From assembly GCF_036226525.1 (NCBI RefSeq), contig NZ_CP108487.1, positions 7,688,001-7,752,000 of the forward strand: a stretch of 64,000 nt of DNA, written 5' to 3'. This DNA comes from Kribbella sp. NBC_01245. GTDB lineage: Bacteria; Actinomycetota; Actinomycetes; Propionibacteriales; Kribbellaceae. The stretch's first letter is position 1; every line of letters starts with the position of its first letter. Shown here in pieces: positions 14,838 to 59,411 of the stretch. Position numbers and translations under genes: made by a program. The notes beneath the pieces were generated by a model that saw nothing but the letters and a program-made list of their open reading frames with translations, had not been told where the DNA came from and did not search any database.

Positions 14838-15870
14838 GTGTCCCGGTACCGGCTTGTCCCAACCCCCGCGCAGGAGACCGCGCTGCTGGGACACTGCGGC
14901 CACGCCCGGTACGTGTGGAACCTCGGACTCGAACAACGGCTGATGTGGCGACCCGGACGGCCACCCACGCCAGGCCGACGTGGCGCAGGGCCGGCCAGCA
15001 TGAGGGGTTCCGGATCGTCGGGCCACAAGCCCAACGGGTCGAGCGGCTGAACCGCAAGTGGGGCCGGGTGCTGGTGCCGAAAGCCGGCTGGATCAAATTC
15101 CGCTGGTCGCGCAAGATACCCGACGCCAAGTCGTACCGGATCACCCGCGACTCGGCGGCGCGGTGGCACATCGCCTTCGCCGCCATCCCCGACCCGATCC
15201 CGGCGCCCGGGACCGGTGAGGTGGTCGGGATTGACCGGGGTGTTGCCGTATCGGCGGCACTGTCCACGGGCGTGCTGCTCGCGTGTCCCGGGCTGCGTGC
15301 CAACGAACAGGCCCGGCTGAAGCGCCTCCAACGCCAACTCGCGCGGTGCCGACCAGGGTCGAACCGGCGCACCCGGATCAAGACAGCCATCGCCCGACTG
15401 AAGGCCCGGGAGACGGCTCGGCGCAAGGACTGGATCGAAAAGATCAGCACCTACATCGCTGAACGGTTCGATGTGATCCGGGTCGAGGCCCTCCGCATTC
15501 GGAACATGACCCGCTCGGCGCGCGGCACAAGCGAACTACCCGGCCGCAACGTGCGGCAGAAGGCCGGGTTGAACCGGGGCATCCTCGCTCAGGGCTGGGG
15601 ACTGCTCGTCACTCGGTTGGAGCAGAAAGCACCCGGCAGGGTCGAGAAGGTCAACCCGGCTACACGAGTCAGACGTGCGCAGAATGCGGGCATTGCGCGT
15701 CGGAGAACCGCGAGAACCAAGCGGTGTTCCGATGCCACGCCTGCGGCCACACCGCAAACGCCGACGTCAACGCAGCACGCAACATCGCGGCCGGACGGGC
15801 CGTGACCGCACGCCGAGGCACGAGGTCTGTGCCGCTGAAGCGTGAACCACATCTCGCTACCTCCGCGTAG
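14838..15870 (+). pseudogene. tnpB: Decayed TnpB transposon nuclease (IS200/IS605, IS1341-like)
   Basis: The protein is readable in three pieces. Piece 1 from GTG 14838 gives SRYRLVPTPAQETALLGHCG and NLGLEQRLMWRPG. Near 14970 the frame changes and about 45 residues of the usual N-terminal region are missing. Piece 2 (about 14975-15660) has FRIVGPQAQRVERLNRKWG, VVGIDRGVAVSAAL (RuvC aspartate) and a conserved central region with ARETARRKDWIEKIS. A second, one-base shift near 15661 moves to the frame with the zinc-finger cysteines (QTCAECGHCASENREN, FRCHACGHTANADVNAA) and the last RuvC aspartate, stopping at 15870. No tnpA is visible. At least two frame breaks plus a deletion make it non-functional as a protein. 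Confidence 0.88.
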
Positions 15871-41567: not shown

Positions 41568-41581
41568 TTAGGTAGACCTAA
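41568..41581. promoter_or_regulatory. Iron-box-like palindrome upstream of the sdh operon
   Basis: TTAGGTAGACCTAA is two perfect TTAGGT half-sites in inverted orientation, 97 bases before the start of the first sdh-operon gene and overlapping the stop of the gene upstream. The half-site is that of IdeR/DtxR boxes (TTAGGTTAGSCTAACCTAA), but the spacing is five bases shorter than in the consensus. Iron regulation of an iron-rich enzyme would be sensible; binding is inference. Confidence 0.45.
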
Positions 41582-42206
41582 TTTGCGCCATTGCAGTTGG
41601 GTGGAGTAATGGCACATATCCAGCCTGTAATACGGCCCGATTAGCGGCCGGCGTCAGTACGTCGACCAGGGTCCCCGCCGCGATCGCCCGAGCCGGGCCG
41701 TATCCCTGCCAGGACCAGTCGAGCAGTTCGCCGCCGAGCACCAGCGCGGGCCTGCCGTCGTACCGGACCATAGCCCCGTCCGGAAGTTCACCGACGGTCC
41801 CGGTCGTGATGCGCTGCCGCCGGGTACGCCGGTCGACGCGCTCGTCGTGCAGCCGGGCGTCCATCGCGGCGGCCCGTGGTCGCTCGGGAAGACCGGCAGC
41901 GGCGGCCCAGCAAGCGCCGTACCGGTTGAAATCGGCGCGCCGGCAGTACGCGCACGGGCGGTGTCCGGCGGCGAGCGCGGTCGCCTCGTCGAGGAAGAAC
42001 AACGCGGTCCATCGCCCGGGCGGCATGGGGTCTCGCTGGACACCTTTCCATTTCAGGACACAGGTGATCCACGCTTTCGACCGCCAACGCGTCACGCCGA
42101 GGGTTCGATCCGGGCCATGCAAGGTGCCGCGATTACCCATCAACAGGCCCCGGCCGGTATCGGCGACGATGTCCTGAGTAGGCAGTACGCGATTCTGCAG
42201 CGGCAT
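41568..42206 (-). CDS. Unknown protein with CxxC motif
   Basis: 212 residues from ATG 42206 (MPLQNRVLPTQDIVAD); the frame is open upstream to 42281 but that part overlaps the promoter of the divergent gene. Visible features are GLLMGNRGTLHGPDRTLG, RWRSKAWITCVLKWKG, the cysteine motif GHRPCAYCRRADFNRYG and a C-terminal beta-rich domain (DGAMVRYDGRPALVLGGELL). It looks like a conserved actinobacterial protein with one metal-binding CxxC, but I cannot name the family. It is divergent from the MutT-type gene. Confidence 0.7.
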   Translation of the reverse strand: MPLQNRVLPTQDIVADTGRGLLMGNRGTLHGPDRTLGVTRWRSKAWITCVLKWKGVQRDPMPPGRWTALFFLDEATALAAGHRPCAYCRRADFNRYGACWAAAAGLPERPRAAAMDARLHDERVDRRTRRQRITTGTVGELPDGAMVRYDGRPALVLGGELLDWSWQGYGPARAIAAGTLVDVLTPAANRAVLQAGYVPLLHPTAMAQIRST

Positions 42207-42314
42207 AGGCGCATTCTGGGCCACGGGGCATTCTGGTGCCACTGACACTTTTCGACCGGGGAAAATCGTGGCGGGAGGCAACTATTTCGTATTCGTCTGG
42301 CAGAGTTGCCTTTC

Positions 42315-47261: not shown

Positions 47262-48971
47262 ATGGCTCACGCCAAGCGAGTCGGACCGGCAATTGCCGCT
47301 GGTCTCGCGCTTACCCTCACGCTGGCGGCATGCGGCGGGGGAGATAACAACGGTGGCGGTGGCACTGACCCCGGCGCTGCAGGTTTCAAGGGTGGCACGC
47401 TGACGATCTACCACGTCAACGACGTCGAACACCTCGACCCGGTCCGCAACTTCGTCACCGACTCGAACGCCATCGGCAAGCTGCTGACCCGCACGCTGAC
47501 CGAGTTCAAGTACGACGGCAAGGCCAAGAAGACCGTCCTGGTGCCGGACCTGGCCAAGGAGTGGAAGTCGAACGACGCTCTTGACGAGTGGACGTTCACG
47601 CTCAAGGACGACCTGAAGTACGAGGACGGCACACCGGTCAAGGCCGCCGACATCAAGTACAACGTCGAGCGCGGTTTCTCCCCGGACCTGTCCGAGGGCT
47701 CGCCGTACCCGAAGGAAATGGTTGCCTGCCAGAAGGGCTACGCCGGCCCCTACACGGGCGGCAACAACGGCGGCAAGGGTTGTGAGGCCATCACGGCTCC
47801 CGACGACAAGACCATCGTCTTCAAGCTGCAGCGCCCGGTCGCCGAGTTCGACATGGTCGCCTCGATGAAGAACTTCTCGCCGGTGCCGCAGGCCAAGGAC
47901 ACCAAGACCCAGTACGACGCCCACCCGCTTGCGACGGGCCCGTACAAGATCCAGACCTACACCCGTAAGAAGGAACTGGTCCTGGTTCGCAACGACCAGT
48001 GGAAGCAGGAGAGCGACGAGCTCCGCACCGCGCGTCCGGACAAGTTCGTCTTCAAGTTCGGTGGCGACGAGTCCGTCGTCGACCAGCGCCTGATCGCGAA
48101 CGGTGTCGCTGACCAGAGCTCCTTCAGCTTCAGCGGCATTCAGCCGCAGAACCTGCCGAAGACGAACTCGGCCAACGTGAAGGACCGCGTTATCGAGGGT
48201 GAAGACATTTGCCGTCGCTACATCGCCTTCAACCAGCAGAAGCCGCTGTTGAAGAACCAGAAGCTGCGTGAGGCTCTCTACTACGGCCTCAACCGTGTCG
48301 AGTACCAGACCGCCCGTGGTGGCGAGCGTCTCGCGGCTGTTGTCGACTCGATCGTCCCGGAGACCCTTGACGGCTACGAGGCCGACACCGTCTTCCAGGC
48401 CCCGCCGACCGGTGATGCCGCCAAGGCGACGGCTCTCCTGAAGGAGGCCGGCTACAAGGGTGAGAAGCTGACCCTTGGTACCGCAGACTCGGGTCTGGCC
48501 ACCAAGGCCGCCGAGGCCGCGCAGGCGTCGTGGAAGAAGATCGGCATCAACGTCGACATCCGGAAGATCCCGGGCGACAACTACTACTCGACGCAGCAGA
48601 ACGACGCGTCGGCGACCGACCTGATCACCGCCGGCTGGTGCTTCGACTACCCGAGCATCGCCTCGGTCGTCGCGCCGGTCCTCGGCCCGGACACCACGTC
48701 CGCCACGCCGAAGGCAGCGCAGAACAACTACGGTCGTTCGCTGGTCGCCTACGACAAGTTCAAGGCCAACTCCCTGATCAAGGACAAGGGTGAGGCGACC
48801 AAGGCGTGGTCTGCGCTGTACAAGGAGCTCATGCAGACCGCTCCGCTGGTTCCGACCGTGAAGGACCTGAACGTGTACGTCATCGGCGGCAACGTCGACA
48901 ACGCGATTCCGGACCCGAACACCGGTGGTATCCCGGACCTCACCCAGATCGGCCTTAAGAAGGCCAACTGA
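47262..48971 (+). CDS. Oligopeptide ABC transporter substrate-binding lipoprotein (family 5)
   Basis: 569 residues. The lipobox LTLTLAACGGG puts the cysteine at about 24, followed by a Gly-rich linker. The family 5 domain shows HLDPVRNFVTDSNAIGKLLT, YEDGTPVKAADIKYNVER, and RRYIAFNQQKPLLKNQKLRE followed by ALYYGLNRV. It comes 173 bases after dppF, so it may have an own promoter, as receptors are needed in excess. Codon use includes more T-ending codons (GTT, GCT, CTT) than neighbours, which fits high expression or a different history. Confidence 0.92.
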   Translation: MAHAKRVGPAIAAGLALTLTLAACGGGDNNGGGGTDPGAAGFKGGTLTIYHVNDVEHLDPVRNFVTDSNAIGKLLTRTLTEFKYDGKAKKTVLVPDLAKEWKSNDALDEWTFTLKDDLKYEDGTPVKAADIKYNVERGFSPDLSEGSPYPKEMVACQKGYAGPYTGGNNGGKGCEAITAPDDKTIVFKLQRPVAEFDMVASMKNFSPVPQAKDTKTQYDAHPLATGPYKIQTYTRKKELVLVRNDQWKQESDELRTARPDKFVFKFGGDESVVDQRLIANGVADQSSFSFSGIQPQNLPKTNSANVKDRVIEGEDICRRYIAFNQQKPLLKNQKLREALYYGLNRVEYQTARGGERLAAVVDSIVPETLDGYEADTVFQAPPTGDAAKATALLKEAGYKGEKLTLGTADSGLATKAAEAAQASWKKIGINVDIRKIPGDNYYSTQQNDASATDLITAGWCFDYPSIASVVAPVLGPDTTSATPKAAQNNYGRSLVAYDKFKANSLIKDKGEATKAWSALYKELMQTAPLVPTVKDLNVYVIGGNVDNAIPDPNTGGIPDLTQIGLKKAN

Positions 48972-49003
48972 TCCGAGGTTCTAGCCACTAGCTAGACAAG
49001 CAA

Positions 49004-49035
49004 AGGGCGGTACCGGTTCTCCGGTACCGCCCTTC
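49004..49035 (+). terminator. Strong rho-independent-like terminator
   Basis: AAGGGCGGTACCGG (49004-49017) and CCGGTACCGCCCTT (49022-49035) form a perfect 14-base stem with a TTCT loop, 32 bases after the receptor gene and just before the stop of the converging pseudogene. It may act in both directions. Confidence 0.9.
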
Positions 49036-49039
49036 GCCG

Positions 49040-50415
49040 TTAGATCGAGGTCGGTAGCTTCTCCAGCTCTTCGGTCTGTGTGTATCCATGGTCGCCGAGT
49101 GCGGCACTGAGGTCATGCCAGAGCAGACTGGCGGCCCGCTGATCTGTGCCGATTGGCGCGAGCTCGATGGTCATCGACGTCAGACTGGCCCAGTCGATCC
49201 ACAGCCGTCGGCGGACGCAATGGCCATTGACGCCAACCACGATCCGGATCGCGAAGTATCGCTCGGACTCCGGGCCGGTGAGGATCTGGCGGATGGTCGA
49301 CGTGATCGCGAGCGGCTCGGCGTCCAGCCACTCGTGGACGTCCTCCTCGGTCGTCAGATCGGCAGCCTGGTGGTACCAGGCGGGATCCAGCCAGGCTTCG
49401 CGAGTCGGGTCCATGAACCCAGTAGCGATCGTTGAGCCGACTTGCCGGGCGGTGAGCTCGGGAAGTTCCAGCAGGCCGAGTAGCGCGAAAGCCTTGGCGG
49501 CGAGAACATCCAGGGCGTTGTCGCTCTCGGCCAGTTGGTCGATCGATAGGCCGAGGGAGGCGCGTACGCCGAGATGGCCGAGTTCGAGTCCGTCGAGACG
49601 ACGATGTACGTCGGCTAGGCGCTCGGCCAGATGGCTGACAGGCCATTGGGGTCGGGAGGCGAGCCTGGCGCCGGCGATGCGGATGGCGAGCGGGAGGCCG
49701 CCGCAATAGGTCACGACATCCGACCAGGCGGGATCCGTCGTCAGCGGACGCCTCGAGAGCTGGGCGAGCAGGTCGAGTGACTCGTCGACGGGTGGTACAT
49801 CGAGCTGGAGTTGCTCCGCGCCGGGGATCGACGTCAGGACCGAACGGCTGGTCAGGATGACCGCGCAGGTGGACGATCCGGGCAGCAACGGAGCGACTTG
49901 CGGTGCGTCGGCTCAGTTGTCGAGCAGGACCAACATGTTGCGCTTGGCAAGGATTGACCGATACAGGCCGGTGGCGGCGTCCACCTCATCCGGAAGGCTG
50001 GTGTCGGGAATGCCCAAGCTCGTCAGCAACTGCCGCAACCCGTCGAGCGGTTCGGTGGGCTTGGCCGGTCCGTGTCCGCGCAGGTCGACGTACAGCTGGC
50101 CATCTGGGAACTGGTCGAGCACCTGATCGGCGCCCTGGATCGCGAGTGCGGTCTTGCCGATTCCGCCCATGCCGGTGATGGCCAGCAAGGTGAGCCCAGG
50201 CCTGGCCGCCGATATGGTGAGCCGATCCACTAGCAGCGCCAGCTCGTCTTCGCGGCCGACGAAGTCGCTCGTTGCCAACGGCAACTGCCGAGGTCGCGAC
50301 GGCCTCGCTCGAGCCCGCTGATCGCCTGCGCACTCATCCCAGCCCGCTCCGCAAGCTCGACCTGCGATAAACCCGCCGCGGTTCGGTATCGGCGTAGCAG
50401 GTCGGCGAAGATCAT
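49040..50415 (-). pseudogene. Decayed fourth copy of the HTH/NB-ARC/TPR array
   Basis: The start is ATG 50415 (MIFADLLRRYRTAAGLSQVE), overlapping the preceding gene's stop as in the intact copies. Near 50300 the frame shifts and the end of the HTH region is lost; the ATPase part goes on in another frame (RPRQLPLATSDFVGREDELA, GMGGIGKTALAIQGADQV). An in-frame TGA at 49913-49915 interrupts the Walker B segment (LVLLDN-stop-ADAPQVAPLLPG). After the STAND core a stretch of about 100 residues (winged-helix part) is deleted (TARQVGSTIATGFMDP joins TREAWLDPAWY) and the TPR region is lost, ending ALGDHGYTQTEELEKLPTSI. Four separate defects make it non-functional. Confidence 0.85.
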
Positions 50416-52793
50416 ACTTCCGCCATCCCGAGCAGACCTTCGATGCTGCCCGTATCCGTGCCGTGTTCCTGACGGATGGCCAAGGCGGTCCGCCAATGAC
50501 GCCTCGCCTCGGCGGCGTTGCCTGCCGCGTGGAGTGCATGACCGATATCGACCTCGACCGCCGCCTGGCGAAGCCTGTCGTCCTCGCGCTCAGCCAACTC
50601 CAGTGCGCGGCCGAGGCGTTCGCCTGCCTCGCCGAGTCGCCCTTGTTCGATGGCGACGCGGCCAAGCTCGTGCCATGCCTCGCTCTCAAGCAGCACCCGG
50701 TCGTAGGTCCGGGAAAGGTCCGCACAAGCTGCCAGGGCGGATTCGGCCGCCTCGTAGTCGCCGATCTCGCGGCTTGCCAGGCCGTGGGTCATATGAATGA
50801 TGCACCGATACCACCCGTGCTCGGGATCTGCGAGGTGTGCAAGGCCCTCTTCGAATGCCGCTGAACCCAGGTCTTTGCGGCCGGTCTTCAGATGGAGCAT
50901 GCCCAAGGCCATACACGCGAAGGCGGCCCTGCGAGGGAGCTGAAGTTGGATGGCCATCTCGCGCGCCTTGGCCGCGTAGGGGATTGCCTCTTCGTAGCGG
51001 CCGAGCCGTTCCAGCAAATGTCCCAGCGTCAGTAGGCAAAGGGCTTGCATGCCGCCGACACCAGTGATGTCCGCACGGGTGAGTGCTTGCTGCATTGGCG
51101 AAACGGCTTCCTCGTACCGTTCGAGTTCGCCTAATGCCGCACCGAGATCGTGCAACACCATTCCCGCTCCGAGGTGGTCTCCCGAAGCGATGGCTATCTC
51201 CCTCACTGCAGTCATCGCAAACATCCAGTCGAGCCATCGGCGCCGCCGGGTGTAATAGGCGTTCAGGCCGACGGCCAACCGGATGGCCAGCTGTTGCTCA
51301 AAGGCGGTCCCGGTGGCACCCCGCCGCAGCGTCGGCACGATGAGGTCGCGCGCGTCATCGAGCCACTCCATCGCCTCTGGGAGGTTCAACTCCATTGCAG
51401 AAGCCCACCAGTCGGGACTCAGCCATGCCTCGCGGCTGTCGCCATGGCCAGCGTGGTCGGAAACCCTCCATGTGACGGCCGACAGGCGTTCTAGCCATCG
51501 CACCCGTGCCGCGACTTGCTCGTCTGGGGTCAGGACTTCGTGGACGTGTTCGGCCGCTGCGACCCGGAGGAGGTCATGCAGTCGGTAGCGCTCGGGCGCT
51601 GGGCTAGCGAGCAGGTGTACGTCGACCAGTCGTTCCAACGCGGCGGCCGCATCACGCTCTGACCAGTCGGCAAAGGCGGCGATTTGGCGCGCACTGATCA
51701 CTGGCGATTCGGCCAAGCCCAGCAGGGCGAACGCCTCTGCCGCCCGTACGTCGATCGGGTCGTCGCTCTCGCGGAGGTGGTCGATGGAGAGGTTGAGCGT
51801 CGCCCGGACGCCGATGCCGGCATCGACTTCCAGCTCGTCGAGACGGCGGCGTTCGTCCGCCAGCCGGCCGGCGAGGTGCGAGACGGGCCAGTTCGGGCGG
51901 GAGGCGAGTCTCGCGCCCGCGATCCGGATCGCCAACGGCAGACCGCCACAGTGCTCGACCACCTGCGTCCAGGCCGGGTCGTCCGACAGCGGCCGGCCGG
52001 CGACCGTGGCAAGGAGGCGAAGGGACTCGGCCAGTGGCGGCACTTCGAGAGGGACCCGGATGGTGCCGGCGATGGCGGGCAGATCCAGCCGGCTGGTCAC
52101 GATGACCGCGCACCTGGCCGAACCGGGCAGCAGCGGCAGCACCTGCTGCGCGTCCGCCGCGTTGTCGAGGATGACCAGCATGCGCCGCTCGGCCAGCAGC
52201 GTCCGGTACTTCGCGACCGCCTGGGTCTCGTCGGAGGCCAACTCGTCCGGCTGGACCCCGAAGACCGACAGCACTTCGCGGAGGGCGTCGATCGGAGCCG
52301 TAGCCGTACCAGGGCCGAAGCCGCGCAGGTCGACGTACAGCTGGCCATCGGGGAACTGCGCCACCGACTCGTGCGCGGCCTGAACGGCAAGGGCGGTCTT
52401 GCCGACGCCGCCCATCCCGGTGATGGTCAGTACGCTCAGCGCGGTCGCCTCAGCGGCACCGACCAGCGCCTGGCGAAGGGTGGCGAGCTCCGACTCTCGA
52501 CCGATGAAGTCCCGCGTGGCCAAGGGGAGTTGCCGGGGGATCGTCCGTTCCGGGGCAGGCGTTGAGACGGTGCCGGCCGTACGCGCGGACGTGGTGAGCA
52601 GGGTCGCCTGGTCGGCGGCGTTGAGGTCGAGCGCGTCGGCCAGGGCCAGCACGGTATCCCGGCGCGGATGACGACGAATGCCCCGCTCCAGTCCGCTGAT
52701 GGCGGCAACGCTGAGACCCGCCCGCTCGGCGAGTTCGGCCTGTGACAAGCCTGCCGTGGTCCGGTAGCGGCGGAGGAGGTCGGCGAAGGTCAT
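50412..52793 (-). CDS. HTH/NB-ARC/TPR STAND-type regulator, copy 3
   Basis: 793 residues from ATG 52793, overlapping the stop of copy 2 as ATGA. Order: XRE-type helix-turn-helix (about 1-60: RTTAGLSQAELAERAGLSVA), linker, NB-ARC ATPase (Walker A GMGGVGKTALAVQ at about 126-133, Walker B RRMLVILDNAADA, and the helical-domain GLPLAIRIAGARLASRP), winged-helix part with RLHDLLRVAAAEHV, and a TPR solenoid from about 560 to the end. Such proteins are thought to couple ligand sensing by TPRs to ATP-dependent regulation. Its NB-ARC segment is nearly the same as in copy 2, while TPRs differ. Confidence 0.88.
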   Translation of the reverse strand: MTFADLLRRYRTTAGLSQAELAERAGLSVAAISGLERGIRRHPRRDTVLALADALDLNAADQATLLTTSARTAGTVSTPAPERTIPRQLPLATRDFIGRESELATLRQALVGAAEATALSVLTITGMGGVGKTALAVQAAHESVAQFPDGQLYVDLRGFGPGTATAPIDALREVLSVFGVQPDELASDETQAVAKYRTLLAERRMLVILDNAADAQQVLPLLPGSARCAVIVTSRLDLPAIAGTIRVPLEVPPLAESLRLLATVAGRPLSDDPAWTQVVEHCGGLPLAIRIAGARLASRPNWPVSHLAGRLADERRRLDELEVDAGIGVRATLNLSIDHLRESDDPIDVRAAEAFALLGLAESPVISARQIAAFADWSERDAAAALERLVDVHLLASPAPERYRLHDLLRVAAAEHVHEVLTPDEQVAARVRWLERLSAVTWRVSDHAGHGDSREAWLSPDWWASAMELNLPEAMEWLDDARDLIVPTLRRGATGTAFEQQLAIRLAVGLNAYYTRRRRWLDWMFAMTAVREIAIASGDHLGAGMVLHDLGAALGELERYEEAVSPMQQALTRADITGVGGMQALCLLTLGHLLERLGRYEEAIPYAAKAREMAIQLQLPRRAAFACMALGMLHLKTGRKDLGSAAFEEGLAHLADPEHGWYRCIIHMTHGLASREIGDYEAAESALAACADLSRTYDRVLLESEAWHELGRVAIEQGRLGEAGERLGRALELAEREDDRLRQAAVEVDIGHALHAAGNAAEARRHWRTALAIRQEHGTDTGSIEGLLGMAEV

Positions 52794-55165
52794 GTGGCGG
52801 CCATTCCGAGGAGGGCTTCGATGGTGGTTGTGGGTGCGCCGTTCTCCTGGTGGATGGCCAAGGCGGTGCGCCAGTGGCGGCGGGCTTCGGTGGGCTGGTC
52901 GGTGGCATGCAGGGTATGGCCGATGTCGACCTCGATCGCCGCTTGCTGGAGCCAGTTCTTCTCGCGCTCGGCCACGGTCAGGGCGAGGCGGAAGTGATCG
53001 AGTGCGGCCGGGTAACGCTCTTGCGCGAGGGCAACGCGGCCCAACTCGTGCTGCGCCTCGCTCGCGATCAGGGCGAGGTCGGTGCCTTCGCAAACCGCGA
53101 TGCAGGATTCGAGGGCGGTGATCGCCTCGGCGTGGTCGCCGAGCTCGCGGCTGGTCACCGCGAGGTTCAGCAGGATCGAGGCCCGGAACCGCTGGTGTTC
53201 GGGATCCGCGAGCCACGCCAGGGCCTGGTCGAACTCCGCCAACCCCAGCTCCTTGCTGCCGACCTTCAGCTGCAAGATGCCCAGGCTCATACAGGCATAG
53301 GCGATTCGGCGGGGGAGTTGAAGCCGGAGATTCAGGTCTCGCGCTCTGATCGCATACGGGATCGCCTCTTGGTAGCGACCGACACGTTCCAGCAGGTGCC
53401 CCAGCATCAGCAGGCACAGACCCTGCAGACTTTCCTCCTCGCTCAGGTCAGCCTCATCCGCGCCTTGGACTACGAATGGGACGGCTTCCTCATAGCGTTC
53501 TTGTTCGCCGAGAGCCGCGCCGAGGTCATGCAGGACCAAGCCGGCCGCGATGTGATCACCGGAGGCGATGGCGATGTCCTTGACCTCGTTCATCGCGAGC
53601 GCCCAGTCGAACCAGCGGCGACGCTGCGTGTAATAAGAGTTGAGGCCGACGGCCAGGCGAATCGCCAACTCCTGCTCGAATGCCGTACCGGCGGCGCCTT
53701 GGTGGAGAGCCGGCACGATCAACTCCCGCTCATCGTCGAGCCATTCCAACGACTCCTCGTGGCCGAGGTTCATCGCGGAGGCCCACCAGTCGGGGCTCAG
53801 CCACGCCTCGCGGGTGGCGCCGTGACCCGCATGCTGAAGGGCTCGCCAAGCCACGGCCGACAGACGTTCCAGCCAACGCACCCGGGCGGCGGTCCGCTCG
53901 TCCGGGGTCAGGACGCGGTTGGCGTGTTCGACCGCCGCGACCCGGAGGAGGTCATGCATCCGATAGCGCTCGGGTGCTGGGCTGGCGAGCAGATGCACGT
54001 CGACCAGTCGTTCCAACGCGGTGGCGGCGTCCCGCTCCGAGCAGCCGGCGAGGGCCGCGACCTGCCGTGCACTGGCGTCCGGCGATTCCACCAGGCCCAG
54101 AAATGCGAACACCGCTGCCGCCCGTACGTCGATCGGGTCGTCGCTTTCGCGGAGATGGTCGATGGACAGATTGAGGGTCGTCCGCACCCCCGTACCGGCG
54201 TCGATCTCCAACTCGTCGAGCCGCCGACGTTCATCCGCCAGGCGTTCGGCCAGATGGGAGACCGGCCAGTTCGGCCGCGCGGCGAGCCTCGCGCCAGCGA
54301 TCCGGATGGCCAGCGGCAGACCGCCACAGTGCTCGACCACCTGCGTCCAGGCGGGGTCGTCCGTCAGCGTTCGGCGGGCCACCGTTGCCAGCAGGCGAAG
54401 CGATTCGGCGAGCGGCGGCACTTCCAGCGGCACCCGGATGGTGCCGGCGATCGCGGGCAGGTCCAGCCGGCTGGTCACGATGACCGCGCACCTGGCCGAA
54501 CCGGGCAGCAGCGGCAGCACCTGCTGCGCATCGGCCGCGTTGTCCAGCACGACCAGCATGCGCCGATCGGCGAGCAGCGTGCGGTACTTGGCCACCGCCT
54601 GTGCCTCGTCCGCGGCCAGCTCGTCCGGCTGGATGCCGAAGACCGACAACACCTCACGCAACGCGTCGAGCGGTGCCGTCGCCGTCCCCGGGCCGAAGCC
54701 GCGCAGGTCGACGTACACCTGACCGTCGGGGAACTGCGCCACCGACTCATGCGCGGCCTGGATCGCGAGCGCGGTCTTCCCGACCCCACCCATGCCCGTA
54801 ATGGTCAGCACTCTCAGCGCTTCAGCTGTGCCGGCCAACGCCTGCCGCAGCGTGCCCAGCTCGGCCTCCCGACCGATGAAGTCGCCCGCTGCCAATGGGA
54901 GCTGCCGGGGGACTACCGCCGCGGGGAACACCGCGACCTGTGCGCGCCTTTTCGCCGCAGTGAGCAGCTCTGCCTGGTCAGGAGCGTTGAGGTCGAGGAC
55001 ATCGGCCAAGGCCAGCACAGTCTCCCGACGCGGATAACGGCGAACGCCACGCTCCAACCCACTGACAGCGTCCACACTGAGCCCTGCGCGCTCCGCCAAA
55101 CCAGCTTGCGAAAGGCTGGCAGCACGCCGGTGTTGACGAAGAAGATTCGCGAAGGAAGACGGCAT
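52790..55165 (-). CDS. HTH/NB-ARC/TPR STAND-type regulator, copy 2
   Basis: 791 residues. HTH at about 1-60 (RRAASLSQAGLAERAGLSVD), NB-ARC with GMGGVGKTALAIQAAHES at about 124-141, RRMLVVLDNAADA and CGGLPLAIRIAGARLAARP, then RMHDLLRVAAVEHAN and a TPR region (about 560-791). It starts three bases after copy 1 stops and overlaps copy 3 by four bases, so the array is translated as a unit. A run of more than 50 bases in the ATPase segment (around 54478-54530) is identical to copy 3 (around 52098-52150). Confidence 0.88.
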   Translation of the reverse strand: MPSSFANLLRQHRRAASLSQAGLAERAGLSVDAVSGLERGVRRYPRRETVLALADVLDLNAPDQAELLTAAKRRAQVAVFPAAVVPRQLPLAAGDFIGREAELGTLRQALAGTAEALRVLTITGMGGVGKTALAIQAAHESVAQFPDGQVYVDLRGFGPGTATAPLDALREVLSVFGIQPDELAADEAQAVAKYRTLLADRRMLVVLDNAADAQQVLPLLPGSARCAVIVTSRLDLPAIAGTIRVPLEVPPLAESLRLLATVARRTLTDDPAWTQVVEHCGGLPLAIRIAGARLAARPNWPVSHLAERLADERRRLDELEIDAGTGVRTTLNLSIDHLRESDDPIDVRAAAVFAFLGLVESPDASARQVAALAGCSERDAATALERLVDVHLLASPAPERYRMHDLLRVAAVEHANRVLTPDERTAARVRWLERLSAVAWRALQHAGHGATREAWLSPDWWASAMNLGHEESLEWLDDERELIVPALHQGAAGTAFEQELAIRLAVGLNSYYTQRRRWFDWALAMNEVKDIAIASGDHIAAGLVLHDLGAALGEQERYEEAVPFVVQGADEADLSEEESLQGLCLLMLGHLLERVGRYQEAIPYAIRARDLNLRLQLPRRIAYACMSLGILQLKVGSKELGLAEFDQALAWLADPEHQRFRASILLNLAVTSRELGDHAEAITALESCIAVCEGTDLALIASEAQHELGRVALAQERYPAALDHFRLALTVAEREKNWLQQAAIEVDIGHTLHATDQPTEARRHWRTALAIHQENGAPTTTIEALLGMAAT

Positions 55166-55168
55166 GGG

Positions 55169-57568
55169 TCAGTGCTCTTCCAGGAGGGCCTTGAGGGTGG
55201 GGGTGGGGATGGCGTGGGAGTGGAGGATGGTCTGGGCCAGGCGCCATTCGCGGCGGGCGTCGGACTCGTGGCCTTGGGTCTGGTGGGCGTCGCCGAGGTG
55301 GCGGCGGATCGTTGCTTCGCGCAACCAGTCGCCGTGTTGGCCGGCGATGGCGAGGGCTTCGCTGTAGTGCAAGACGGCTTCGGAGTGGTTGCCGAGGGCA
55401 AACGCGAGTAGGCCGAGCTCGTCCAGGGCCTCGGCTTCGGCGAGGCTGCCGCCCTCCGCGCGGAAGAGCGCCAGGCTCTGCTCGAGGGCCTCGGCGGCGG
55501 TCTGGTATTCGCCGGCCTCGCGATAGGCCACGCCGACGTTCATGGCGATCATGCCCTGGCCGCCACGAGGTCCGGCGGCGGCGCCGAGTGCCAGGGCCTC
55601 GTTGAACCGGTCCCGCGCGCGGCCGTTGTCCCCGGTCTTCAGGTAGAGCATGCCGAGTGCGAGACAGGCGTAGGCGGTCCGGCCGGGGTGCCCGACGTGG
55701 AGGCCGAGGCGGCGCGCGCGTTCGGCGTACGGGATGCCTTCGGCGTACTGGCCGTTGCGTTCGAGGGCGTGGCTGAGGCTGCTCAGGCAGAGCACCTGGA
55801 GGATGCGGTCGTCGGTCCGCTCGGCAGCGGCCACAGCCTGGTGCAGGCGCTCGGCGGCGTGTGCGTACTGCCCGAGCTCGGCCTGGGCAGCGCCGAGATC
55901 ATGCAGTACGACGGCCTCGGCGATCGGGTCGTCGCCCTTGGCCACGAGGTCGACGACTGCCTGGTTGACGTGGAGCCAGTCGAGCCAGAGCTTCTGCTGC
56001 GCGTAGTACGCGTTGAGCCCGATAGCGAGCCGTATCGCGACCGCTGGAGCCGTCGAGGCCGTACGTCGTACCGTCGGGACCAGGGTCTGCCGCTCGGCGT
56101 CGAGCCATGCCACTACCTCGGCCTCGGTAGTGAGGTCCTCCGAGGGCTTGAGCCAGGCCGGATCCAGCCAGGCCTGCCGGGTGGCTCCGTGGGTGGCGAA
56201 CTCGCTTGCGCGCCATACGACGGCCAGTAGTCGCTCTAGCCACCTGTCGCGGGCTGCGGCCTGCTCGGATGGCGTGAGCACTTGCTCGGCGTACTCCATC
56301 GCAGAGACACGCAGTAGGTCGTGCAGACGGTACTGGTCGTTGCCCTGGCTAGTGAGCAGGTGTACGTCCACTAGCCGCTCAAGCCCGGTGACGGCCTCAC
56401 CCTCGCTGGAGTCGGCCAGAGCCGCCACCAACCGCACACTTAGGTCAGTGCCGTCGGCTAGCCCCAGGAGTGCGAAATACGCCGCAGCCTGTACGTCGAG
56501 GGGGTCGTCGCTACTGGCGAGCTGCTCGATCGACAGGGTCAGCGTGGCCCGCACGCCCGCGTGGTCGATCTCCAGCTCGTCTAGGCGCCGGCGCTCGTCA
56601 GCCAGGCGGTCTGCGAGGTGACTGACCGGCCAGTTCGGGCGGGAGGCCAACCGAGCCCCGGCCATCCGGACCGCGAGCGGCAGGCCACCGCACTGGTCGA
56701 CCACGTCGGCCGCGGCCGGGTCATCGCCCAGCTTCCGGCCCGCCACCGTGCCGAGGAGCTCGATCGACTCCGCGACCGGCGGTACGCCGAGCTCAAGATG
56801 ACTGGCGGTGAGACCGGTCAGGGAACGCCTGCTCGTCGCGATCACGGCACAACCCGGCGCCTGCGGCAGCAGCGGGAGGACCTGGTCGGCGTCTACAGCG
56901 TTGTCCACGAGCAGCAGGAGCCGTCGGCCCTCGACGAGGCTGCGGAAGCGCGAGGCGGCCGTTGGGAGGTCGGACGGGAGACCGTCTGTGGGCACACCGA
57001 GGGTGCTGAGGATGCTGGTCAGCGCGTCGAGCGGCTCCAGCGGGGGTCCGGGGCCGAATCCGCGCAGGTCGAGGTAGAGCTGGCCGTCGGCGAACAACCC
57101 GGCCACCTGGTGTGCCGCGTGGACTGCCAGCGTGGTCTTGCCGATCCCGCCCATCCCGGTCATGGCGATGACCGGCGCCCGCTCCGGCGTCTTGAGCTCC
57201 GAGGGCGCGTGCTCCGGCGTCGTACGGCTTAGGTGGTCGACCAGCTGGCGTAGCTCTGCGTCACGCCCGGTGAAGTCGCCGGCCGCGAGCGGGAGCTGCC
57301 GAGGCGGCACGAAGGCCGTCGGCGCGGTCGTGGCGGCTGGACGGCCGCGGCGGGAGGCGGCGGCTTCGAGGGCTGCGCGCTGGTCGGCGTCCAGGCCGAG
57401 GGCGTCGGCGAGGGCCGTCAAGGTGCTGCGCTGGGGGTAACGGCGGAAGCCGCGCTCGAGGGTGCTGATGGCCTCTGGGCTCAAACCGGAGCGCGTTGCC
57501 AGCTCGTCCTGGGTGAGGCCGCCGGCCTGCCGATGACGCCGCAACAGGGCCGCGAACTGGGAATCCAT
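55169..57568 (-). CDS. HTH/NB-ARC/TPR STAND-type regulator, copy 1
   Basis: 799 residues from ATG 57568 with GGAGGGGAGCGG upstream; further upstream codons in frame are part of the promoter. HTH about 1-60 (HRQAGGLTQDELATRSGLSP), NB-ARC with GMGGIGKTTLAVHAAHQV at about 138-155 and LLLLVDNAVDADQVLPLLPQ, helical domain CGGLPLAVRMAGARLASRP, then RLHDLLRVSAMEYAE and TPRs (about 570-799). It is the most diverged copy and the first gene of the array, divergent from a LuxR-type regulator. Confidence 0.9.
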   Translation of the reverse strand: MDSQFAALLRRHRQAGGLTQDELATRSGLSPEAISTLERGFRRYPQRSTLTALADALGLDADQRAALEAAASRRGRPAATTAPTAFVPPRQLPLAAGDFTGRDAELRQLVDHLSRTTPEHAPSELKTPERAPVIAMTGMGGIGKTTLAVHAAHQVAGLFADGQLYLDLRGFGPGPPLEPLDALTSILSTLGVPTDGLPSDLPTAASRFRSLVEGRRLLLLVDNAVDADQVLPLLPQAPGCAVIATSRRSLTGLTASHLELGVPPVAESIELLGTVAGRKLGDDPAAADVVDQCGGLPLAVRMAGARLASRPNWPVSHLADRLADERRRLDELEIDHAGVRATLTLSIEQLASSDDPLDVQAAAYFALLGLADGTDLSVRLVAALADSSEGEAVTGLERLVDVHLLTSQGNDQYRLHDLLRVSAMEYAEQVLTPSEQAAARDRWLERLLAVVWRASEFATHGATRQAWLDPAWLKPSEDLTTEAEVVAWLDAERQTLVPTVRRTASTAPAVAIRLAIGLNAYYAQQKLWLDWLHVNQAVVDLVAKGDDPIAEAVVLHDLGAAQAELGQYAHAAERLHQAVAAAERTDDRILQVLCLSSLSHALERNGQYAEGIPYAERARRLGLHVGHPGRTAYACLALGMLYLKTGDNGRARDRFNEALALGAAAGPRGGQGMIAMNVGVAYREAGEYQTAAEALEQSLALFRAEGGSLAEAEALDELGLLAFALGNHSEAVLHYSEALAIAGQHGDWLREATIRRHLGDAHQTQGHESDARREWRLAQTILHSHAIPTPTLKALLEEH

Positions 57569-57599
57569 CCGCTCCCCTCCGCAAAAGCCGCAATTGTAT

Positions 57600-57632
57600 G
57601 GGTGAACTGTACGAGTTGTACCTGTTACATCC
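57600..57632. promoter_or_regulatory. Divergent promoter region with TGTAC repeats
   Basis: Between the STAND array and the LuxR-type gene lies an AT-richer stretch with GTGAACTGTACGAGTTGTAC and CTGTTACAT. TGTAC occurs twice, ten bases apart, and GTAC is self-complementary, giving a possible binding site for one of the HTH proteins on either side. Promoter elements cannot be assigned with confidence. Confidence 0.4.
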
Positions 57633-57687
57633 CCTCCCGCTCTTCGAGACTTGTCCAGTCTGCTGACCGACTGGGGAGGAGAAGCGG

Positions 57688-58464
57688 ATGACACTGCACC
57701 AGATCGAGGTGCTCGACCGGCATCAGGGGAAGCAGCATCAGGCGAGACCGGCGGAGGACGGCATGCTCACGATGACGCCACGGGTTGCGACGGACGATCT
57801 GCTCGGGCTGGTCCGTCCGACCGCGGGGGAGCCGGTCAACGGCATCCGCTGGCTGGATGGACGGGCCGAGATCCGGGCCGAGCTGGACCTGCTGGACGCG
57901 GGTTGTGGCATCGAGCGGATGGCGATGGTCGCCGACCTGCCGCCGGTTCGGTCACACTCCGTGGTCGCCTGGCGGACCCGGGGTGTCCGGGCCCGGACGA
58001 TCCACCAAGTCGCGCCGCTGTCCGGCCGCGTGCTCGGGACGGATCCGGCCGAGGAGGAGGCCCGGGCGTTCCTGGCCGTCTCGGCGACGATGGTGATCGC
58101 GGACCGTTCGGCCGCGCTGGTCATCCAGCCGCCGGTGGAGACCGACGGCGCGCTGGCCTGGCGCGGGCTGATGATCCATGACGTCCGGCTGGTCGACCTG
58201 CTCTGCGAGATGTACGACGGAGTCTGGGAGTGCAGCCTGCCGATCGGGCTGGACGAGGGTGCCGAGCCGCGGTCGGAGGAGCTGACCGAGCGGCAGGAGT
58301 GCATCGGCCGCCTGCTCGCCACCGGCGCCAAGGACGAGGCGATCGCCCGCCGAATGGGGCTCTCGCTGCGGACGGTCCGCTCGGAGATCAGCAGGCTGAC
58401 CGAGGCGCTGGGCGCGCGCTCGCGGTTCCAGGCGGGTGTGCAGCTGGCCCGTCGCTACGGCTGA
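57688..58464 (+). CDS. LuxR-type helix-turn-helix regulator
   Basis: 258 residues, ATG 57688 after AGGAGAAGCGG. The C-terminal LuxR domain is at about 195-255 ([20 protein letters not shown] followed by [17 protein letters not shown]). The N-terminal 180 residues resemble the phospholipase-D-like/TrmB-type sensor part seen in many actinobacterial LuxR solo regulators, without a nameable ligand. It is divergent from the STAND array and 35 bases from mshB. Confidence 0.85.
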
Positions 58465-58499: not shown

Positions 58500-59411
58500 A
58501 TGACTGCACTCCCTGACCGCAGGCTCCTGCTGGTACATGCCCATCCGGACGACGAGACCATCAACAACGGTGTGACGATGGCGCGCTACGTGGCCGAAGG
58601 CGCGCACGTCACGCTGGTCACCTGCACCCTCGGCGAGGAGGGCGAGGTGCTGGTGCCGGAGCTGGCGCACCTCGCCGCCGACCAGACCGATGGCCTCGGG
58701 CAGCACCGGATCGGCGAGCTGGACGCCGCGATGAAGGAGCTGGGCGTCACCGACCACCGGTTCCTCGGCGGGCCCGGCCGCTACCGCGACACCGGGATGA
58801 TCTACGACGACGAGGGCAACGCGGCCGTGCCGCTCGAGACCCGCGAGGACAGCTTCTGGCGGGCCGATCTGCTGACCGCGGCCGATGACCTGGTGAAGGT
58901 CATCCGGGAGGTCCAGCCGCAGGTTCTGCTGGCGTACGACGAATTCGGTGGTTACGGCCATCCCGACCACGTCCAGGCACACCGCGTCGCCATGTACGCC
59001 GCGGCGCTGGCCGCTGTCCCGTCGTACCGCGAGGATCTCGGGCCCGCCTGGGACATCGCGAAGATCTACTGGAACGCGATGGGTGAGAGCGGTCTGCGCG
59101 AGAGCCTGCGCAAGCTGCGCGAGTCCGGCGACACCACCACCTTCGAGGGTATGGATCCGGACGGGCCGCTGCCGCGTTTCGTCACGCCGGACCGGTTCAT
59201 CTCCTGCGTGATCTCCGGCGGGGCGTACGTCGACCAGAAGATGAGCGCGATGAAGGCGCACGCCACGCAGATCACGCTGGACGGGCCATTCTTCGCGTTG
59301 TCCAACAACAACGGCAACGAGGTCTGGGGCGACGAGGCGTATGTGCTGGCCAAGGGCACCGCGTCTCCCGGGCCGGACGGTTTGGAGCGTGACCTCTTCG
59401 CGGGCCTCTAA
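58500..59411 (+). CDS. mshB: N-acetyl-1-D-myo-inositol-2-amino-2-deoxy-glucopyranoside deacetylase
   Basis: 303 residues, ATG 58500. The zinc-site motifs of the PIG-L/LmbE fold are complete: [15 protein letters not shown] and [19 protein letters not shown]. Length and MshB-type segments ([34 protein letters not shown]) fit mycothiol biosynthesis, where it deacetylates GlcNAc-Ins. Mycothiol is the actinobacterial replacement of glutathione, supporting the taxonomic call. Confidence 0.93.

Follow-up and report, generated by a model that had tools for sequence, protein, structure and literature searches.

In AfsR, a large SARP of Streptomyces coelicolor (PDB 8jke, 8k60), DNA binding is held in check by the NOD and TPR parts, and ATP lifts this inhibition (PMC10936776). 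MalT and PH0952 are subject to double autoinhibition (PMC6468293); in both, contacts of the sensor and the arm keep the core closed until the inducer binds (PMC4381067, PMC6468293). A DGR-based repertoire of STAND sensors has been described in other multicellular bacteria, with a mechanism that differs from that of the locus presented here (PMC10907252).

The window analyzed, a stretch of 64,000 nucleotides from the 8.68 Mb single-contig genome of Kribbella sp. NBC_01245, contains four STAND genes arranged head to tail on the minus strand and transcribed in the order c1, c2, c3, c4 (Table 1). Many actinobacteria have regulators of HTH-NB-ARC-TPR architecture, most of them with no ligand known to us; our literature search found no paper joining Kribbella with NB-ARC. 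We think it likely that c1–c3 are locally expanded STAND transcriptional regulators, probably encoded by one operon, that act as ligand-gated switches.

Table 1. Features of the array and its immediate surroundings, in window coordinates
Feature	Position	Strand	Description
c1	55169..57568	-	XRE HTH - NB-ARC - arm - TPR STAND regulator, 799 aa
c2	52790..55165	-	full-length paralogue, 791 aa
c3	50412..52793	-	full-length paralogue, 793 aa
c4	49040..50414	-	pseudogene, c2/c3 type
Candidate gene-conversion tract	c2 54462..54529, c3 52084-52151	-	68 bp, c2 = c3; longest exact run
c1/LuxR divergent intergenic region	57569..57687		presumed only promoter of the c1–c4 unit
Long hairpin	48999..49038		separates the array from the solute-binding-protein gene that converges on it; -37.2 kcal/mol, z -8.4
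Solute-binding protein gene	47262..48971	+	family 5, oligopeptide ABC transporter; converges on the array; at 9 of 13 relatives' loci
LuxR/GerE-type regulator gene	57688..58464	+	divergent; core neighbour in the genus
PIG-L family deacetylase gene	58512..59411	+	core neighbour; MshB-like by our reading

The tandem array of three full-length paralogues and a degenerate fourth had been described in an earlier note on this DNA, which proved right in coordinates, sizes and junctions: a three-base gap separates c1 from c2, and the c2/c3 and c3/c4 junctions are ATGA overlaps. Over their full length c2 and c3 are 74% identical and c1 and c2 51–52%. The note's remark that the NB-ARC parts are alike while the TPR parts differ holds for c2 and c3, whose identity is 91% over the core NB-ARC but 58% over the TPR part. 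Because the frames overlap or abut, a promoter scan found no convincing promoter within the array (the sole promoter-like site in the region is on the opposite strand) and the terminal hairpin is strong, the spacing and layout of c1–c4 suggest co-transcription, probably as one operon. Although the hairpin does not satisfy the scan's T-run rule, it probably terminates transcription from both directions.

The Pfam models HTH_31/HTH_3, NB-ARC and TPR_12 each score above their cut-offs in c1–c3, and the nucleotide-binding motifs are whole in all three (Walker A GMGGxGKT, Walker B hhhhDNA, TSR, GLPL and (M/L)HD), with the Walker A, Walker B, GLPL and MHD motifs of the STAND/NB-ARC (AP-ATPase) class lying inside the NB-ARC domain. 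Walker B reads DNA, as opposed to the DD of many NB-ARC proteins, and DNA is common to all the orthologues checked. In agreement with the note, Pfam finds no effector domain other than the HTH in c1–c3. The predicted structure of c2 (pLDDT 86, pTM 0.70) comprises an HTH, NB-ARC, arm and six regular TPRs at residues about 542–775. A fold search with this model returned PH0952, a STAND protein with a TPR sensor, first and ADP-bound Apaf-1 next, with TM-scores of 0.38–0.40 over the query; as these scores are modest, the match backs the architecture of c2 but not its fine detail. A STAND core with a helical-repeat sensor is thus shared with PH0952 and MalT, although sequence identity is low (14%) and the DNA-binding domain of MalT is C-terminal whereas the HTH of the array proteins is N-terminal.

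The nearest solved protein in a profile search is the AfsR core (E about 1e-151), with the best stretch in the NB-ARC/arm region. The NB-ARC/NOD core, arm and TPR align with those of AfsR, and the two share the layout of a STAND core governing a DNA-binding output. However, AfsR carries OmpR-type and BTAD domains of the SARP type where c1–c3 have an N-terminal XRE HTH (HTH_31/HTH_3), and the NCBIfam AfsR model scores 310–340 bits against a cut-off of 1430. The top NCBIfam models for c1–c3, which are AfsR, HaaT and FxsT, all score far under their cut-offs. HaaT and FxsT (NF041717, NF040586), which are TPR proteins found in RiPP systems, resemble c1–c3 in the NB-ARC and TPR region (E 8e-84 to 6e-27), although the scores are 282 bits for HaaT (cut-off 1125) and 105 bits for FxsT (cut-off 300), and a family scan of the neighbours recognized no RiPP or secondary-metabolite genes adjoining the array.

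By analogy with AfsR, MalT and PH0952 we propose a switch cycle for c1–c3. The resting state would be an ADP-bound, closed monomer in which the TPR sensor and the arm keep the NB-ARC core shut. Binding of a ligand, probably a peptide or protein, in the groove of the TPRs would release the core and permit exchange of ADP for ATP and oligomerization. The N-terminal XRE domains would thereby be brought together on DNA, with a change in transcription. The candidate targets that lie nearest are the divergent LuxR-type gene and the promoter of the array itself. Among c1 orthologues the recognition helix hardly varies, but it reads A[IV]SGLERG in c2–c4 as against AISTLERG in c1, so the copies may not have one common target.

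The search for orthologues covered 37 other Kribbella genomes. The orthogroup of the array is present as a single copy in 13 of them, at the same locus each time, with the LuxR-type and PIG-L deacetylase genes as neighbours and often the oligopeptide permease at the other side. All 13 are nearer to c1 (55–60%) than to c2 or c3 (45–49%), and c1 is the syntenic orthologue of this single-copy gene; in one genome (G018) the orthologue is split into two frames. An orthologue at this level was not found in the remaining 24 genomes. For 11 of these the locus was compared gene by gene; the genes for LuxR, the deacetylase, flavin reductase and VanW are present there, and the site has no STAND gene. As these 11 species cluster in the flanking-gene tree (support 1.0), one loss or one gain could explain the absence. 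Four copies occur only in the window genome. In several species the same locus also houses other, more distant STAND genes (36–40%), which lie between the deacetylase and flavin reductase genes in G031, G029, G009 and G037 (and, in decayed form, in G010 and G018) or beside the solute-binding protein gene in G010 and G003. Given the 6–39 NB-ARC matches per Kribbella genome and at least 14 further tandem groups of the HTH-NB-ARC-TPR family elsewhere in the genus, of which that in G004 is the largest at five copies, the array is typical of a lively family.

From these counts (one copy in 13 congeners, none found in 24, four here) and from decay also in G018 and G010, the birth-and-death history that had been proposed is real. 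The array arose by duplication in place and by copying of sequence between its members. In trees c2, c3 and c4 form a clade, whereas c1 is placed with its orthologues by the full-length and TPR segments and with c2–c4 by NB-ARC. As AU tests reject neither position of c1 for any segment, we argue for conversion from silent sites and not from topology.

More than 50 identical bases had been noticed between copies 2 and 3 in the ATPase segment, and the longest exact run is indeed 68 bp, at the centre of a segment of high silent identity. Where c2 and c3 have the same residue, 65% of codons are identical within residues 88–432 compared with 48% outside (p = 0.0002, by permutation within amino-acid classes), although this p is somewhat generous because the block follows domain limits chosen after the sliding table had been seen. 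The run test is independent of that choice, and gives a longest run of 22 identical silent codons (p = 0.0006 against shuffles). Silent identity reaches its maximum of 0.83 around residues 184–248. No such excess is seen in the controls, which were seven orthologue-orthologue pairs and two pairs of c1 with an orthologue. The direction is not universal, as one pair in the G004 array has higher silent identity outside the block. The simplest reading of the silent-site pattern is gene conversion in the NB-ARC segment of c2 and c3, in agreement with what had been suggested. With a syntenic ancestral copy, an expansion that bears evidence of conversion, and relatives with a single copy or no gene, the locus offers a clean setting for study.

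Pairwise omega was estimated by NG86 and YN00, with many silent distances near saturation and no YN00 value for many pairs. For c2 and c3 it is 0.31–0.35 in the TPR part and 0.03–0.08 in NB-ARC. Between orthologues of other species the TPR value is 0.05–0.17, with one at 0.42, and for c1 against G010 it is 0.81 (NG86) at an oddly low silent distance; no TPR omega above 1 was obtained by either method among the pairs tested, and the c1 orthologues are under purifying selection. The constraint on the c2/c3 TPR part appears relaxed relative to most orthologue pairs. However, the ratio of TPR to NB-ARC omega (NG86), about 3.7 for c2/c3, lies inside the range of other pairs (roughly 1–4), so the low NB-ARC divergence makes part of the contrast.

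The usual concave, ligand-binding positions of a TPR are 2, 5, 9, 12 and 13. At these groove positions, assigned by sequence register on the predicted repeat, c2 and c3 differ at 8 of 30 (27%), compared with 84 of 162 (52%) of the other non-core TPR positions (p = 0.016, uncorrected, with 12 pairs examined), and pooled orthologues follow the same trend (14% against 27% differing). In the G004 and G029 arrays, unlike c2/c3, the groove is about as variable as the rest, and in none of the 12 pairs is it significantly more variable. This predicted groove points against hypervariable sensors; its conservation suggests that the ligands of c2 and c3 are alike and that the two copies would be variants for dosage or fine-tuning.

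Hypervariable sensors would have made the array a bacterial NLR-like repertoire, but the copies tested are not hypervariable. The recognition repertoire put forward in the earlier note would consist of NLR-like receptors whose diversifying TPRs detect phage or rival proteins and whose shared HTH output triggers a response. It draws on the variation in copy number, the tandem arrays and 6–39 NB-ARC genes per genome in the genus, the decaying copies, the faster change of TPR than of NB-ARC, and the G004 and G029 grooves, which are as variable as, though not significantly more variable than, their surroundings. Like the antiphage STANDs Avs and bNACHT, the array proteins place a STAND ATPase between an output and a sensor domain; in contrast to them, they carry a DNA-binding HTH only and no enzymatic effector by Pfam, and PADLOC returns just generic HTH, TPR and AAA models for c1–c3, with no specific match. 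A scan of 30 neighbouring proteins against defence models gave no strong match to a characterized system adjoining the array, and the neighbouring ABC ATPases match only generic models, contrary to the idea of co-located defence genes. With omega below 1, a conserved c2/c3 groove and an orthologue that is stable and single-copy in relatives, we hold a repertoire against phages or rivals to be very improbable. A broader version, in which birth and death supplies receptors, conversion keeps their switch uniform and the sensors diversify for non-self or peptide signals feeding one transcriptional output, seems to us very unlikely also.

The earlier interpretation is therefore largely supported in its evolutionary half and not supported in its recognition-repertoire half. 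The comparisons it had named as refuting give a mixed picture: copy number is not constant, one-to-one orthologues exist for c1 only, and purifying selection on the TPR part is stronger in most orthologue pairs than between c2 and c3.

A different possibility is that c1–c3 are peptide-pheromone receptors that work like the RRNPP sensors (Rap, PlcR, Rgg) and whose peptide enters the cell through the neighbouring oligopeptide permease. An XRE HTH and TPRs are found in both, the oligopeptide ABC transporter adjoins 10 of 14 loci including that in the window, and profile matches of the TPR part include the Rap phosphatase RapI and LGN, whose families bind peptides in the TPR groove, which in c2 and c3 is conserved. 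However, RRNPP proteins lack the NB-ARC switch present here, the abutting and overlapping genes leave no gap for a pheromone gene, of which none was found at the array, and the transporter is absent beside the orthologue in G009, G014, G018 and G037 and occurs without a STAND gene in G021, G022, G023 and G036. This makes the pheromone reading rather improbable. An obligatory link between STAND gene and permease is rejected, as each occurs without the other at several loci.

The fourth gene is a pseudogene. It has no counterpart of c3 residues about 41–86 and a frameshift there, an in-frame TGA just after Walker B, a second deletion of residues about 374–452 (c3 numbering) that removes the winged helix and MHD, and an end at about residue 556, with the C-terminus lost. 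The death of c4, the relaxed TPR constraint on c2 and c3 and the decay of orthologues or paralogues at the same locus in G018 and G010 would all fit a history in which c2–c4 are redundant duplicates drifting to loss and c1 alone keeps the ancestral work. We regard this as unlikely, given that c2 and c3 retain open frames, every nucleotide-binding motif, a low NB-ARC omega (0.03–0.08) and the conserved groove.

Several genes and sites in the surroundings deserve mention. A Pfam-less gene for a 237-aa protein (41568-42281) matches PDC-S40, one of PADLOC's candidate defence singletons, at 268 bits; as homologues (68–73%) are found in most STAND-bearing relatives' loci, it is possibly ordinary core biology. 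Distant from the array, the window also holds an RmuC-like gene and a gene (14915-15805) for a 296-aa TnpB/Cas12f-like protein that matches PADLOC Cas12f models and is probably an IS200/IS605-type transposon accessory gene. A defence island around the array is rejected, with nothing specific among the neighbours scanned.

The LuxR-type protein has 258 aa here, whereas the 37 other Kribbella have one of about 98 aa, although the start context of its gene is conserved; the extra N-terminal part resembles a paralogue in the same genome (G000:C1:7901352). About 60 bases upstream of this gene lies a 31-bp element (57594-57624), CAGGTACAACCCATACAGTTCACCCATACAA, which occurs with close variants at every Kribbella locus examined for it, whether or not a STAND gene is there. 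Three extra copies with 0–4 mismatches (G006, G029, G031) stand in the same orientation 40–75 bp upstream of genes for large secreted LamG/Rhs-like proteins. The element resembles an operator or promoter and may mark a regulon that has not been studied. As species without the STAND gene retain it beside LuxR, it belongs to the LuxR gene; for this reason, and because the extra copies precede secreted-protein genes, we reject it as the STAND operator. A short peptide gene (MGELYGLYLV) is rejected as the main reading, with a stop in G035 and the start lost at an extra G010 site.

The five-copy tandem array of another Kribbella (L069, G004:C166:29925-41484) has the same architecture, and one of its pairs combines a low TPR silent distance (about 0.4) with an omega of 0.52–0.58, among the fastest TPR change in the comparison.
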